Shown: piece after piece, positions 3,598 to 9,556 of the stretch
How the letters are laid out: the number at the start of each line of letters is the position of its first letter
How positions within the stretch are numbered: position 1 is the first letter of the stretch
Source: Beggiatoa leptomitoformis
GTDB lineage: Bacteria > Pseudomonadota > Gammaproteobacteria > Beggiatoales > Beggiatoaceae
Length of the DNA stretch: 64,000 nt
Direction of reading: 5' to 3'
Assembly: GCF_001305575.3 (NCBI RefSeq)
Contig: NZ_CP012373.2
Span: 372,001-436,000, forward strand
Position numbers and translations under genes: made by a program
The notes under the pieces: generated by a model
Told to the model about the DNA's origin: nothing
Databases searched by the model: none
Seen by the model: only the letters and a program-made list of their open reading frames with translations

Positions 3598-6500
3598 CTA
3601 TAAGAATAATTCAGTCAATGTATTCAACAGCCCTTCATATTCAAATGCCTGAATATCTTGTAGTTCTTTCAAAACGGCGATTAAATCTACATCAGCTTGT
3701 TGTGTAACATCCGCAACCAATGGTGCGAAAGTATATGTTAATGCTTCAACAGGCGTATGTCTTTGATGAGTATCATGATTAACATCTAAAACGCCAGTAT
3801 AAATAATCTGATGTGATTCTTTCCCTAAATTTTCCAAAATGGGCTGAATAGATGAACAATACTGCATACAATCACTATAAACATCAATATATTCAACGGC
3901 ACATCTAAATAACTCCGTTGCAAAAACAGCAGGATTTGTTGTTTGTAGCGCGCTATTCAATTGCTCTTCTAACGTATTATTAATATGTAATATTTGCCAT
4001 AATCGCCATGTATTGTGCGTATCCTCTACAACAGCAATACAACGGTTATCAGACAAAATAGGGCTACAGTGAATATGTAATGCAATTTGTTGACGGAATG
4101 CAGTACGGGCTTCTGCTTCGCTGGCAAACTGCCATGACGATTTAGAGAAACACCGCCAGCCATTTTTACCACTAATACTCCATAAATCATTTGCTTGTAA
4201 ATGTGGACGTAAAGGATTTTTCAACACTTCGCTTATCATCTGCCGTCCTGCAAGTGGTGGCCAAATCCATTTAGAAGAAGTTTCTTCATCAGGAAAAGGT
4301 GGCAAGCGTTTACTGGTTCTTAATTTTGGCGGTACAACAGTTTTAACAGGTGCTTCTTCTGTAGGCAATATTGGCGATTGAGTGAATGTTTCTAGTTCCT
4401 CGTTCAATAACTCAGGCGCAGATAACAAGGTTTGTTCAAGCAGATTTTCCTCTACTGCATCCTGCTTTTCAGTCAACAATGCATTATCAATATTATCAAT
4501 CGGTAATGGCGTTTCTTCATTTGATGCTAATAACTCAGGTGCATCTGCAAATAAAGAAATCTCTTCTTCTTTTTTTGTTGATAATTCAACAATATCAGAA
4601 TCTTCTGCGAGTAAAGCCAATTCTTCGGGTGATAAAGCTTCAAGATTTAATTCGTCAGGTTCGGATTCAGCTATTTCTGCTAAAGGTTCAACAACATCAG
4701 AATCTTCTGCGAGCAAAGCCAATTCTTCAGGCGATAAAGCTTCAAGATTTAATTCGTCGGGTTCGGATTCGGCTATTTCTGCTAAAGGTTCAACAATATC
4801 AGAATCTTCTGCGAGTAAAGCCAATTCTTCAGGCGATAAAGCTTCAAGATTTAATTCGTCAGGTTCAGATTCAGCTATTTCTGCTAAAGGTTCAACAACA
4901 TCAGAATCTTCTGCGAGTAAAGCCAACTCTTCAGGCGATAAAGCTTCAAGATTTAATTCGTCAGGTTCGGATTCGGTTATTTCTACTGGTGATTCAACAA
5001 CATCAGAATCTTCTGCGAGCAAAGCTAATTCTTCAGGCGATAAAGCTTCAAGATTTAATTCATCGGGTTCAGATTCGGCTATTTCTGCTGGTGATTCAAC
5101 AATATCGGAATCTTCTGCAAGTAAAGCCAATTCTTCAGGCGATAAAGCTTCAAGATTTAATTCGTCAGGTTCGGATTCGGTTATTTCTGCCAAAGGTTCA
5201 ATAATATCAGAATCTTCTGCGAGTAAAGCCAATTCTTCAGGCGATAAAGCTTCGAGATTTAATTCGTCAGGTTCGGATTCTGCTATTTCTGCTGGTGATT
5301 CAACAACATCAGAATCTTCTGCGAGCAACGCCAATTCTTCAGGCGATAAAGCTTCAAGATTTAATTCGTCAGGCTCGGATTCAGCTATTTCTGCTGGTGA
5401 TTCAACAACATCAGAATCTTCTGCGAGTAAAGCTAATTCTTCAGGCGATAAAGCTTCAAGATTTAATTCGTCAGGTTCAGATTCGGCTATTTCTGCTAAA
5501 GGTTCAACAACATCAGAATCTTCTGCGAGCAAAGCCAATTCTTCAGGCGATAAAGCTTCAAGATTTAATTCGTCAGGTTCAGATTCGGCTATTTCTGCTA
5601 AAGGTTCAACAACATCAGAATCTTCTGCGAGCAAAGCCAATTCTTCAGGCGATAAAGCTTCAAGATTTAATTCGTCGGGTTCGGATTCGGCTATTTCTGC
5701 CAAAGGTTCAACAATATCAGAATCTTCTGCGAGTAAAGCCAATTCTTCAGGCGATAAAGCTTCAAGATTTAATTCGTCAGGTTCGGATTCGGCTATTTCT
5801 GCCAAAGGTTCAACAATATCAGAATCTTCTGCGAGTAAAGCCAATTCTTCAGGCGATAAAGCTTCAAGATTTAATTCGTCAGGTTCGGATTCGGCTATTT
5901 CTGCTAAAGGTTCAACAACATCAGAATCTTCTGCGAGCAAAGCCAATTCTTCAGGCGATAAAGCTTCAAGATTTAATTCGTCGGGTTCAAACTCAGTTAT
6001 TTCTACTGGTGATTCAACAACATCAGAATCTTCTGCGAGCAAAGCCAATTCTTCAGGCGATAAAGCTTCAAGATTTAATTCGTCAGGTTCGGATTCTGCT
6101 ATTTCTGCTAAAGGTTCAACAATATCAGAATCTTCTGCGAGCAAAGCCAATTCTTCAGGCGATAAAGCTTCAAGACTTAATTCGTCAGGTTCGGATTCGG
6201 TTATTTCTGCTGGTGATTCAACAATATCAGAATCTTCTGCGAGCAAAGCCAATTCTTCAGGCGATAAAGCTTCAAGATTTAATTCATCGGGTTCGGATTC
6301 GGTTATTTCTGCCAAAGGTTCAACAATATCAGAATCTTCTGCGAGTAAAGCCAATTCTTCAGGCGATAAAGCTTCAAGATTTAATTCATCGGGTTCGGAT
6401 TCGGTTATTTCTGCCAAAGGTTCAACAATATCAGAATCTTCTGCGAGTAAAGCCAATTCTTCAGGCGATAAAGCTTCAAGATTTAATTCGTCAGGTTCGG

Positions 6501-7887
6501 ATTCGGCTATTTCTGCTAAAGGTTCAACAACATCAGAATCTTCTGCAAGTAAAGCTAATTCTTCAGGCGATAAGGCTTCAAGATTTAATTCGTCGGGTTC
6601 AGACTCAGCTATTTCTGCTGGTGATTCAACAATATCGGAATCTTCTGCGAGCAAAGCCAATTCTTCAGGCGATAAAGCTTCAAGATTTAATTCGTCAGGT
6701 TCAGATTCTGCTATTTCTGCTAAAGGTTCAACAATATCAGAATCTTCTGCGAGTAAAGCTAATTCTTCAGGCGATAAAGCTTCAAGATTTAATTCGTCAG
6801 GTTCGGATTCGGCTATTTCTGCTAAAGGTTCAACAATATCAGAATCTTCTGCGAGTAAAGCTAATTCTTCAGGCGATAAAGCTTCAAGATTTAATTCGTC
6901 AGGTTCGGATTCGGCTATTTCTGCTAAAGGTTCAACAATATCAGAATCTTCTGCGAGCAAAGCCAATTCTTCGGGTGATAAAGCTTCAAGATTTAATTCG
7001 TCAGGTTCAGACTCAGCTATTTCTGCTGGTGATTCAACAACATCAGAATCTTCTGCGAGTAAAGCTAATTCTTCAGGCGATAAAGCTTCAAGATTTAATT
7101 CGTCTGTTTCTGCTAAAGATTCAACAATATTAGAATCTTCTACTGGTAAATCAGTTTGTTCTAAATCACTTGTTAATTCTATGGTTTCTGGAATGACATT
7201 TGCTGAAGGAGTGGCTGTAATCATGTTAGGAACATGACTTTGCAATAATGCAAATAACTCTTGTCCTGTGCTAACATCTGGACGATCTACACGGAGTTTA
7301 CCTTTCATCATCAGGGCTTCCGCACGTTCTACCGCGTAGCGCACAGCCAGTACAAAAGTATCACGAATGCCCTTACCACTTTTTGCAATGGTTTCAACCA
7401 GTTTAATATCAGAATAGTCGCTGAATAGTGTTTGTATGTCTTCTAGCGAAAATGCTTCTTTATCAAGATGTTTATTCGCTTGAATAATAAATTTTACCGC
7501 ATCTTCCCCATCATGGGGCAGTGAGGCGTGTAATGCTCGAAAACGGTGAAGGGATTCTTCAAGCGTGTCAACATCGCTGATGTCAATGATAAAAATAACA
7601 ACATCCGCCATATTGAGTAAAAATTGGCGATGTGCTTGTAATGCAGGATCACTTGGGACGGTGATAATTTGACAAGCAATACCATGCCCTCTGAAAAAAC
7701 CACCTATGTAGTCAATCCATTCAAAATAATGAGTTTGTCCTGCATCTGCTTGCGGTGTATAAATCGTGTTGGTTCTTCCCAGCACATTCGCAAGTGAATA
7801 TAGACTGGTGGTTTTCCCAGATAATGGTAGCCCGTCATATACCATGCGAAAAACGATAACATCGTGTTCTTTATCAATAATTGCCAT
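3598..7887 (-). CDS. MglA-like small GTPase fused to a 25-copy acidic repeat region and a C-terminal domain
   Basis: This 1429-residue protein has three parts. Residues 1-205 resemble bacterial Ras-like GTPases of the MglA/gliding type: P-loop GLPLSGKT (19-26), a switch-II-like TVPSD (77-81), a G4-like NKHLD (138-142) and a G5-like AKSGKGI. Residues about 260-1120 hold 25 tandem copies of a 34-residue acidic unit with the core EALSPEELALLAEDSD, alternating between VEPLAE and VESPAE variants. Residues about 1170-1429 form a globular domain I do not recognise. MglA-type GTPases act as polarity switches for gliding and pili; a role in filament motility or polarity is inference. Switch II lacks the TVPGQ seen in MglA, and G4 has one extra residue, so nucleotide hydrolysis may be altered. 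The divergent neighbour encodes a phosphoesterase. Confidence 0.8.
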   Translation of the reverse strand: MAIIDKEHDVIVFRMVYDGLPLSGKTTSLYSLANVLGRTNTIYTPQADAGQTHYFEWIDYIGGFFRGHGIACQIITVPSDPALQAHRQFLLNMADVVIFIIDISDVDTLEESLHRFRALHASLPHDGEDAVKFIIQANKHLDKEAFSLEDIQTLFSDYSDIKLVETIAKSGKGIRDTFVLAVRYAVERAEALMMKGKLRVDRPDVSTGQELFALLQSHVPNMITATPSANVIPETIELTSDLEQTDLPVEDSNIVESLAETDELNLEALSPEELALLAEDSDVVESPAEIAESEPDELNLEALSPEELALLAEDSDIVEPLAEIAESEPDELNLEALSPEELALLAEDSDIVEPLAEIAESEPDELNLEALSPEELALLAEDSDIVEPLAEIAESEPDELNLEALSPEELALLAEDSDIVESPAEIAESEPDELNLEALSPEELALLAEDSDVVEPLAEIAESEPDELNLEALSPEELALLAEDSDIVEPLAEITESEPDELNLEALSPEELALLAEDSDIVEPLAEITESEPDELNLEALSPEELALLAEDSDIVESPAEITESEPDELSLEALSPEELALLAEDSDIVEPLAEIAESEPDELNLEALSPEELALLAEDSDVVESPVEITEFEPDELNLEALSPEELALLAEDSDVVEPLAEIAESEPDELNLEALSPEELALLAEDSDIVEPLAEIAESEPDELNLEALSPEELALLAEDSDIVEPLAEIAESEPDELNLEALSPEELALLAEDSDVVEPLAEIAESEPDELNLEALSPEELALLAEDSDVVEPLAEIAESEPDELNLEALSPEELALLAEDSDVVESPAEIAESEPDELNLEALSPEELALLAEDSDVVESPAEIAESEPDELNLEALSPEELALLAEDSDIIEPLAEITESEPDELNLEALSPEELALLAEDSDIVESPAEIAESEPDELNLEALSPEELALLAEDSDVVESPVEITESEPDELNLEALSPEELALLAEDSDVVEPLAEIAESEPDELNLEALSPEELALLAEDSDIVEPLAEIAESEPDELNLEALSPEELALLAEDSDVVEPLAEIAESEPDELNLEALSPEELALLAEDSDIVELSTKKEEEISLFADAPELLASNEETPLPIDNIDNALLTEKQDAVEENLLEQTLLSAPELLNEELETFTQSPILPTEEAPVKTVVPPKLRTSKRLPPFPDEETSSKWIWPPLAGRQMISEVLKNPLRPHLQANDLWSISGKNGWRCFSKSSWQFASEAEARTAFRQQIALHIHCSPILSDNRCIAVVEDTHNTWRLWQILHINNTLEEQLNSALQTTNPAVFATELFRCAVEYIDVYSDCMQYCSSIQPILENLGKESHQIIYTGVLDVNHDTHQRHTPVEALTYTFAPLVADVTQQADVDLIAVLKELQDIQAFEYEGLLNTLTELFL
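4585..7107 (-). repeat. Tandem array of about 25 copies of a 102-bp coding repeat
   Basis: The period is exactly 102 bp (for example GAATCTTCTGCGAG recurs at 4598 and 4700), which keeps the reading frame. Copies are nearly identical at the DNA level, with a few linked variants (AAAGGTTC versus GGTGATTC; TCAGCT/TCGGCT; ACATCA/ATATCA). A rarer variant, TTCTACTGGTGATTCAAC, occurs at 4981 and 6001, exactly ten periods apart. The array is part of the GTPase gene. Because the unit length is a multiple of three, long open frames also appear on the opposite strand; these are not genes. Confidence 0.97.
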
Positions 7888-8029: not shown

Positions 8030-9556
8030 ATGACTTATAAAGTCACCATTGTTGGTGCAGTTGGAGAAAATGTTGTTTATAACGAACAAACTATTATCAA
8101 TTTATTAAGTACTCAACAGCAAGCGTTGTTACACGGAAATTTATTTACAGGTAAGCCTAGTACTAAATTATATGTTGATACACAAAACGCGCTTAAAATT
8201 CGCGGGGAAATCCGTTTAGATGGACGTGCCGCGTTAAAGTGGGCAACACAAGCATTGGTTAAAGAGCAAACTTATCAGGTACATCATCCGCATAAAACAT
8301 GGTTTGTTGCTGAAGAATCTGAACAATCTATTGCTCTAATTGGTAATATTTGTCCACGCTTGCATCCCATTCATGATTTGTTTACTCAAGAATCCGTCGA
8401 TATTAAGTTACGTTTACAGTATTTAGCGATGTTATTCGAGCATTATTTACGTTTGGCAAAAAATACTGGCATTAGATTAGATGAGGGCTTATCTAATTTT
8501 GGTGTAACGACTGATGGTCAATTGTATTATTTAGATGATGATTTTTATACATGGGATCGTTTTATTGCTTGCGCTCAGGTGATGGGGGTTTATTTTCGTA
8601 AGTTACAGTGGTTAAACAGTGATACTGCTGTTGTGTTCGCCCATTCTGTCCGCGCACTCATTTTAGAACATTTTAAGGATAAACAGTATTTGACTGTGCT
8701 GGCTGAACAGTTGGAAGATGTTTTTATTCCTGCTGAAACACAGCGTATCGCATTAGAAAGCTTTATTCGGGCATTAGACGAGCGACATGATGCAACACAT
8801 GTGCATCTGACTAAAACACGTTATTTTGCTTTATTAGCGGATATTCATGCAAATTTCCCTGCATTGCAAACAGTGCTTGCTTATTTGAAAAACCGTAGCA
8901 TTAAACAAGGTGTAGTATTAGGTGATATTGTAGGATACGGACCGCATCCAAGTGAGTGTATTGATTGTATTCGTGAGGCTGGTTTTCATATTGTGAAGGG
9001 TAATCATGATCATGGATTAGCAACAGGCAACTTTAAAAAAGGATTTTCTAATAGCGCAAGTTGGGCTTTAGAATGGGCAACACATCGTATAACAGCAGAA
9101 CAAAGGGCTTGGCTGGCTGACTTACCGCCAATTTTACATGATGAAAAATGGCTTGCTTTACATGGCGCACCGCTTGATCCAACCTTTTTTAATGCTTATG
9201 TTTATGAAATGACTTATGAGGATAATTTGGATACCTTAGAAAGAAAAAGTATCCCATTGTGTTTTCATGGTCATACGCATCAACCCGTTACTTATGCACG
9301 TAAAGCGGGTTTTGTGGATAGTTTATATAAAGGGCAACAGATTGATTTAACACCTTTTGATTACGCTTTAGTTTGTCCCGGCTCTATTGGACAACCGCGT
9401 AATGGACAAGTGGGTGCGCAATTTGCGATTTATGATCAAGAAACGCATAAAATTCATTATCACAATTTAGCCTATCCAATTGAAATAACACTGCAAGATA
9501 TGCAAAATGAGGGTTTCCCTGAAACCTTATTAAAAATGTTACACGGTATTATGTAA
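8030..9556 (+). CDS. Two-domain calcineurin-like metallophosphoesterase
   Basis: This 508-residue protein carries a complete calcineurin-like phosphoesterase domain in its C-terminal half: DIH (271-273), GD (298-299), GNHD (324-327), LHGAP (His378) and GHTH (414-417), which together bind two metals. The form is that of the YfcE/Ap4A-hydrolase-like group, so a phosphodiester or nucleotide substrate is likely but unknown. Residues 1-260 are a separate domain; LDEGLSNFGV followed by LYYLDDDFY (150-172) recalls the catalytic loop and metal-binding Asp of small-molecule kinases, in degenerate form. A good ribosome site (AGAGG) precedes the ATG. It is transcribed away from the repeat GTPase across a 142-bp gap, suggesting shared regulation. 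Confidence 0.85.
   Translation: MTYKVTIVGAVGENVVYNEQTIINLLSTQQQALLHGNLFTGKPSTKLYVDTQNALKIRGEIRLDGRAALKWATQALVKEQTYQVHHPHKTWFVAEESEQSIALIGNICPRLHPIHDLFTQESVDIKLRLQYLAMLFEHYLRLAKNTGIRLDEGLSNFGVTTDGQLYYLDDDFYTWDRFIACAQVMGVYFRKLQWLNSDTAVVFAHSVRALILEHFKDKQYLTVLAEQLEDVFIPAETQRIALESFIRALDERHDATHVHLTKTRYFALLADIHANFPALQTVLAYLKNRSIKQGVVLGDIVGYGPHPSECIDCIREAGFHIVKGNHDHGLATGNFKKGFSNSASWALEWATHRITAEQRAWLADLPPILHDEKWLALHGAPLDPTFFNAYVYEMTYEDNLDTLERKSIPLCFHGHTHQPVTYARKAGFVDSLYKGQQIDLTPFDYALVCPGSIGQPRNGQVGAQFAIYDQETHKIHYHNLAYPIEITLQDMQNEGFPETLLKMLHGIM

Follow-up and report, generated by a model that had tools for sequence, protein, structure and literature searches.

The 64,000-nucleotide stretch of the Beggiatoa leptomitoformis genome that we analysed (the window) encodes a protein of 1429 residues in which an MglA-like P-loop domain (the head), a giant acidic tandem-repeat arm, and a C-terminal domain with a predicted kinase-like fold (the tail) are joined in one chain. 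We tentatively read this protein as an arm-expanded and probably non-switching member of an older family of fused MglA-type GTPase and kinase-like proteins, which may act as a scaffold. The open reading frame (ORF) begins with ATG and is divided as follows, with the basis of each assignment given in brackets.

3598..7887, minus strand: whole ORF, MglA-like P-loop domain, acidic repeat arm, and predicted kinase-like C-terminal domain (ORF call, anatomy, and relatives of both ends in the order)
7273..7887, minus strand: N-terminal MglA-like P-loop domain, residues 1-205 (Pfam, profile, model, and motif table)
7090..7272, minus strand: acidic linker preceding the array, residues 206-266 (anatomy)
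4594..7089, minus strand: array of 25 units of 34 amino acids with the core EALSPEELALLAEDSD, from the first to the last core, residues 267-1098 (repeat analysis)
4294..4593, minus strand: linker following the array, predicted disordered, residues 1099-1198 (anatomy and model)
3601..4293, minus strand: C-terminal domain, residues 1199-1429, kinase-like by its model, with the catalytic Asp apparently missing and thus pseudokinase-like (alignment and model)

Searched alone, window residues 1-216 gave Arf (2.2e-6) as the sole Pfam match passing the cut-off. The GTPase family profile, built from 17 of the 19 order sequences, placed four MglA sequences at the top of its PDB matches (3.1e-26 to 6.9e-25), with Arl1 next at 1.9e-11, and for the AlphaFold model of a fused relative (L078, 492 amino acids, mean predicted local distance difference test (pLDDT) score of 79) Foldseek ranks 1-12 are all MglA. 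Since MglA provides both the first PDB profile matches and the top structural ranks, the kinship of the head with MglA is sound. The first-pass annotation, made from the letters alone, had called this domain MglA-like and proposed a separate search against protein databases; both the label and the expected MglA/Ras-like matches were confirmed.

The motifs of the head were tabulated for 17 order sequences and five Myxococcota ORFs, and L033 and L036 were read separately, giving 19 order loci. In the window protein the G1 P-loop (GLPLSGKTT) is intact and fits the GxxxxGK[T/S] of Group 1 MglA; its GKT is kept in all 19 order loci. G2 reads GQT, meaning that the intrinsic arginine finger beside the G2 threonine of Group 1 MglA is lost (this arginine is kept as GRT in L024, L026, L027, L035, L095, L096, L097, and L098, and as RRT in L099). 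G3 reads TVPSDP (VPSDP) instead of the Group 1 TVPGQ, with loss of the PGQ that is intact in 7 of the 19 order loci and in four of the five Myxococcota ORFs. Finally, G4 reads NKHL in the window and NQYL in its congener (L020), so NKxD, intact in 13 of the 19 order loci, is lost in both. The P-loop alone thus remains in these two proteins. Because the G2 arginine, PGQ, and NKxD are lost together in the window's genus, a classical GTP cycle, and with it the polarity switching first suggested for this protein, appears unlikely from the motifs. By eye, no clear link between arm length and switch decay was seen across the homologs: long arms occur with an intact PGQ (L022, L023, and L099), and short arms with a lost one (L028, L034, and L037).

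A rival explanation holds that the protein is still a working MglA-type polarity switch for gliding or pili, in which the altered G2-G4 motifs are made up for by other residues or, in trans, by a GTPase-activating protein, and the arm tethers it to the envelope or a filament. The intact P-loop, the place of MglA as best profile and structural match, and the PGQ kept by the fused relatives just counted all fit such a switch, as does the genome content, namely an unlinked roadblock-like gene (contig ~1101414-1101788), two Robl_LC7 proteins, and no second GTPase of this family by the family profile at E 0.1. The arginine finger, the catalytic Gln, and NKxD are, however, all lost in the genus, and the unlinked gene is only weakly identified as a roadblock gene (best PDB match 7yh1, E 0.049), so we consider a working switch unlikely.

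The arm carries the core EALSPEELALLAEDSD in 25 exact copies at a constant spacing of 34 residues, with starts from residue 267 to 1083, thus bearing out the 25 copies of a 34-residue acidic unit initially read from the letters; the last unit of the array diverges from the consensus after its core. Tandem Repeats Finder reports 24.7 copies of 102 bp with 92% matches (4585-7104), and the self-match of the arm at period 34 is 0.80, versus 0.17 in shuffles. The repeated stretch of 833 residues contains 294 Asp or Glu and zero Lys or Arg, and the whole acidic arm measures about 990 residues. When a two-unit query was searched against the genome (E up to 1), 19 of 19 matches fell inside the array and none elsewhere. 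The genome consists of one contig of 4,265,317 bases, and that of Beggiatoa leptomitiformis D-402 is a closed PacBio assembly of 4,265,296 bp (PMC4675945); provided that ours is D-402 or a sister strain, the 25 copies probably do not stem from misassembly.

Comparison of the 24 full units (276 pairs) gave a whole-unit ratio of nonsynonymous to synonymous differences per site (pN/pS) of 0.154. In the 16-residue core, pN is 0 versus a pS of 0.15, and the nine variable nucleotide sites are all third-position and all synonymous. Given this synonymous variation, the units of the array are not simply fresh copies. These data also bear on the idea of an inert array that expanded at the DNA level, in a gene that is decaying or can be dispensed with. 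The decayed GTPase motifs and the near-uniformity of the units speak for this idea, but the frame stays open across 1429 codons, the tail is 81% identical to that of the congener, pN/pS between units is low as given above, and other genera have acidic repeats of a different sequence; we thus regard an inert expansion as highly improbable.

Across the relatives, the arms of 22 of 22 measured ORFs are net negative (-0.03 to -0.41 per residue) at lengths of 12 to 991 residues. The pattern used dropped L033 and L036 from this set, which includes two arms truncated at a contig end and the GTPase-only L030. Eight of the 14 arms of at least 60 residues are periodic (z >5) and their units differ, as exemplified by L026 (26 residues), L027 (72 residues, or three of 24 by eye), and L032 (34 residues, with a sequence unlike the window's). 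The arms of L031 and L099 are acidic without a period, and that of the congener has only a few degenerate units (about 2-3), which carry a similar motif (LSPEEQALLAED, LSEEERALLAED). The comparison of repeats among relatives proposed at the outset thus gave a divided answer: arm acidity is conserved across genera, whereas length and sequence vary freely and several genera have repeats of their own.

Such variation is what leads to a further alternative, in which the arm is an entropic acidic spacer whose length drifts by unequal crossing-over or slippage, disorder and negative charge suffice, and the units bind no partner. We hold this to be rather doubtful: homolog arms of very different lengths and unrelated sequences, all net acidic, and a congener with only a few degenerate units speak for it, but the synonymous-only change at the nine variable core sites goes beyond a charge requirement, and the congener keeps a similar motif.

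As for its conformation, the arm is predicted to be mostly disordered (pLDDT mostly <50) in an AlphaFold model that covers the tail and four repeats, in which each unit forms a single short helix at its core (blocks of about 50-62 pLDDT, and 75 for the helix at the model end). The helical moment of SPEELALLAED is equalled by 35% of shuffles and that of an 18-residue version by 68%. The long amphipathic helix array, one of two roles envisaged for the unit in the first-pass annotation, was rejected on account of this mostly disordered model, its short low-confidence helices, and a core moment not above that of shuffles. The second role, that of a multivalent docking scaffold, is possible.

Three other observations concern the arm and its DNA. 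Pfam PIN_10 scores 59.2 bits (4.2e-16) on the whole window protein without any single stretch passing alone; a PIN-like domain was thus rejected, as the score sums weak matches to the repeats, and it is a likely source of wrong annotation. On the strand opposite the array (window 4382-7237, plus strand), 951 codons are open in one frame, and long stretches in another; this open frame is an artefact of the repeat, and gene callers could take it for a gene. Contigs break inside the acidic arm at the end of L029, the start of L055, and the end of L027, and owing to such breaks draft genomes may hold truncated arms of the family or show too few of them.

By sequence, the C-terminal domain is as unrecognised as it had first appeared: the window protein gave no Pfam or NCBIfam match for it, 22 tail members searched against Pfam hit 10 scattered weak families (each in at most two members), and the tail profile found nothing better than E 0.31 in the PDB. 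The model, on the other hand, resembles protein kinases. The tail is modelled at about 90 pLDDT, and Foldseek gave 924 matches for it, the best 50 of which all belong to the protein kinases, pseudokinases, or aminoglycoside phosphotransferases (lowest E 5.6e-4, with at least six matches at E 0.001 or better). VIA, applied to the first 1000 Foldseek matches, listed 50 matches that are all kinase-like (Z 7.2 to 8.2, rows within 1 Z of each other being tied), and the best among the matches listed is a plant pseudokinase (root-mean-square deviation (rmsd) 4.7, 188 residues). A kinase-like fold is thus likely from the model and would be shared with GRMZM2G135359, DRIK1, ILK, MLKL, and APH(3')-Ia, although no sequence similarity between the tail and protein kinases or pseudokinases was found and the structural alignments have 6-15% identity.

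The columns of 22 tails (L050 left out) are invariant for P, P, W, W, S, W, and L, to which W, A, L, Q, Y, and G are added at 90%. At the presumed position of the catalytic HRD Asp, the tails have Asn in nine cases, Gln in three (the window among them), and Asp in two; none of the candidate catalytic positions, which were all assigned by eye, reaches 90% across the 22 tails. We call the tail pseudokinase-like because its model is kinase-like and the catalytic aspartate is apparently missing.

To see how widespread this architecture is, one can turn to the window's order, where the GTPase domain was found in 19 of 42 genomes (E 1e-4) and the tail in 22 (E 0.001), and one more tail, in G041, was recognised by eye in L037. 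Both ends lie in one ORF in 15 of the 19 order GTPase loci; of the other four, two run into the end of their contig (L027 and L029) and two have only the GTPase part (L030 and L036). The missing half of L029 is probably L055, because an ADESVLVQEDD repeat is found in both. In addition, seven genomes have tail-only genes (244-267 amino acids) without a GTPase match at E 1e-4. In a sample of the class, the tail occurs in 4 of 369 genomes, all in the window's family, and the GTPase profile at 1e-20 matches 10 of 369, the six outside the family being single-domain proteins of 218-248 amino acids. Among Myxococcota, the tail occurs in 3 of 188 genomes (one of which is the sample centre, chosen because of its match), and five fused ORFs were read.

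In a phylogenetic tree, the fused members from the two phyla cluster apart from the six single-domain gammaproteobacterial MglAs with a support of 87/100, which is below the threshold of 95; the outgroup of this tree is very long, a long branch lies in between, and L035 does not fall with the remaining order sequences. Since both ends are conserved in the order and also present in some Myxococcota, the fusion predates the genus, and the giant arm is a late development in an older two-domain family; the fusion has perhaps spread between phyla. The fusion is therefore not restricted to this species. No published description of it was found in open-licence PMC papers (on MglA fusions, repeats, disorder, or pseudokinases, MglA in Beggiatoa and Thiomargarita, prokaryotic Ras, Beggiatoa gliding, and the B. 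leptomitiformis genome).

In the scaffold reading that we favour, the intact P-loop of the head would bind phosphate or a nucleotide, and the head would dock MglA-type partners without cycling. The arm would be a disordered, strongly negative polymer repeating one short docking motif 25 times, which would hold many copies of a partner or recruit basic surfaces and also space the head from the tail. The tail, if inactive, could offer another docking site, perhaps for the putative kinase/phosphatase protein of the head-to-head neighbour gene. A wider proposal, which we consider unlikely as a whole, would make the family a class of Ras-like proteins in which MglA heads and pseudokinase tails are wired in cis and repeat expansion determines the arm length, separately in several genera of large sulfur bacteria; in the window's genus, the head would have turned into a pseudo-GTPase, and the arm with its 25 units would make the molecule a multivalent scaffold, possibly one that forms condensates, serving surface motility or signalling at the envelope.

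Several points weigh against the scaffold reading. For the head, the loss of NKxD does not prove that nucleotide binding is lost, as G4 is deviant in Group 2 MglAs too and CvnD9 nonetheless shows GTPase activity, according to the part of the family survey consulted (PMC4316618). For the arm, the invariant core was chosen after the data were seen, which makes its zero pN partly a matter of choice, recent homogenisation could account for part of the core's uniformity, and no partner binding the arm was found. For the tail, the target-normalised TM-scores of Foldseek are about 0.2-0.4 and the rmsd mostly about 10 A among the matches listed, and the Z values of VIA, which lie under or near 8 and come from rows that Foldseek itself had listed, may reflect no more than a shared arrangement. 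Moreover, 14 of the 22 tails keep the candidate loop Asn (N155), 18 keep the candidate DFG Asp (D170), and 16 keep K51, and in the 10 closer tails K51 is invariant, with N155 and D170 at 90% or more; as these residues are partly kept, some activity or ATP binding of the tail is possible, judging from its sequence. Lastly, the head-to-head neighbour is not adjacent in 11 of the 19 GTPase loci.

It is useful to set this protein beside known systems. The MglA family is single-domain, with a survey taking GTPases of up to 240 amino acids in the part consulted (PMC4316618); at 1429 amino acids, the window protein lies far outside this range. With Group 1 MglA of Myxococcus xanthus and Thermus thermophilus (PDB 3t12, 6h17, and 6izw) it shares the P-loop domain over most of its length, and the best-preserved fused relatives (L024, L095, L096, and L098) keep GRT, VPGQ, and NKxD. 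Unlike Group 1, the window protein adds the arm and the predicted kinase-like tail, has lost the switch motifs, and lacks an adjacent roadblock gene. In Roco and other multidomain bacterial GTPases, a Ras-like GTPase is likewise fused in cis to other domains (PMC4316618, part consulted). In contrast to Roco, no COR or LRR domain was matched by Pfam in the window protein, and its partner domain, kinase-like by model, lies beyond an acidic arm. The proposed logic also resembles the MglA-MglB-SgmX-FrzS polarity module of M. xanthus, where an MglA-type domain recruits effectors and FrzS is a pseudo-receiver with a coiled coil (PMC11580455, in the portion consulted). That module works in trans, whereas the parts of the window protein are in cis.

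The MglA work consulted describes single-domain GTPases with partners in trans, and the family presented here combines a GTPase, an adjustable acidic arm, and a predicted kinase-like module in one chain. It occurs in gliding filamentous sulfur bacteria and some Myxococcota, and it offers natural variants of each part (heads intact or decayed, arms short or long within the range given above, and tails fused or separate). These variants would let one ask what role each part plays and whether acidic repeat length tunes signalling.

The protein mentioned above as a possible docking partner of the tail is encoded next to the window ORF.

8030..9556, plus strand: head-to-head neighbour, 508 amino acids, kinase-like motifs (by eye) and calcineurin-like phosphoesterase (head-to-head in 8 of the 19 GTPase loci)

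It lies 142 bp from the window ORF, and its C-terminal half is a calcineurin-like phosphoesterase (Metallophos). The N-terminal half has invariant K56, D151-N156, and D169-D171, which resemble kinase motifs by eye (unproven), and searches of this domain against Pfam and PDB gave nothing of weight. Aligned by hhalign, the tail and this domain share 21 columns (probability 26%, P 7e-4); the alignment is suggestive because the aligned segment looks like a catalytic loop, and kinship between the two is suggestive only. Neighbour-type proteins (window, L020, L022, L023, L025, L027, L028, and L029) thus possibly combine a kinase-like domain and a phosphoesterase in one chain, which would be of interest in itself if the kinase-like part is true.

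In four of the seven tail-only loci, the tail gene follows a co-oriented gene of the T2SSF family (PilC/GspF type), either directly downstream (L048 and L054) or with one ORF between (L052 and L053); the T2SSF identity comes from a Pfam match for L048, L053, and L054 and from a BLAST cluster for L052. This neighbourhood is only a hint that the tail may be linked to type IV pili.

Roadblock-like genes were also considered. No roadblock gene adjoins the window ORF, and the two Robl_LC7 proteins of the genome are both encoded far from the window. In Myxococcota, the fused gene is immediately preceded by a small gene in L096, L098, and L099, and in L097 such a gene is found about 760 bases upstream; L095 has none. 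An alignment of the L096-/L098-type small proteins and their order homologs, which include the unlinked gene of the window genome, has roadblock proteins as its best three PDB matches (E 0.049-0.47, 7yh1 being the best and itself weak), and Pfam Robl_LC7 did not match any of five L096-/L098-type small proteins. A contig pair in the window genome, 1413743 (Robl_LC7) and 1414194 (GTPase with GTPGQ), was examined as a canonical MglAB and rejected for the present family, being of another sequence type and outside the family profile. This locus (C1:1413743-1414625; L061 and L065) nonetheless brings together a GTPGQ-type small GTPase and a Robl_LC7 protein, a pair that, judged by its G3 motif, belongs to another MglA-like group. 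Finally, in a Myxococcales metagenome-assembled genome (L097:5558-9794), a fused GTPase ORF of 519 amino acids is found together with a small roadblock-like gene and with another GTPase-like protein, of 490 amino acids.

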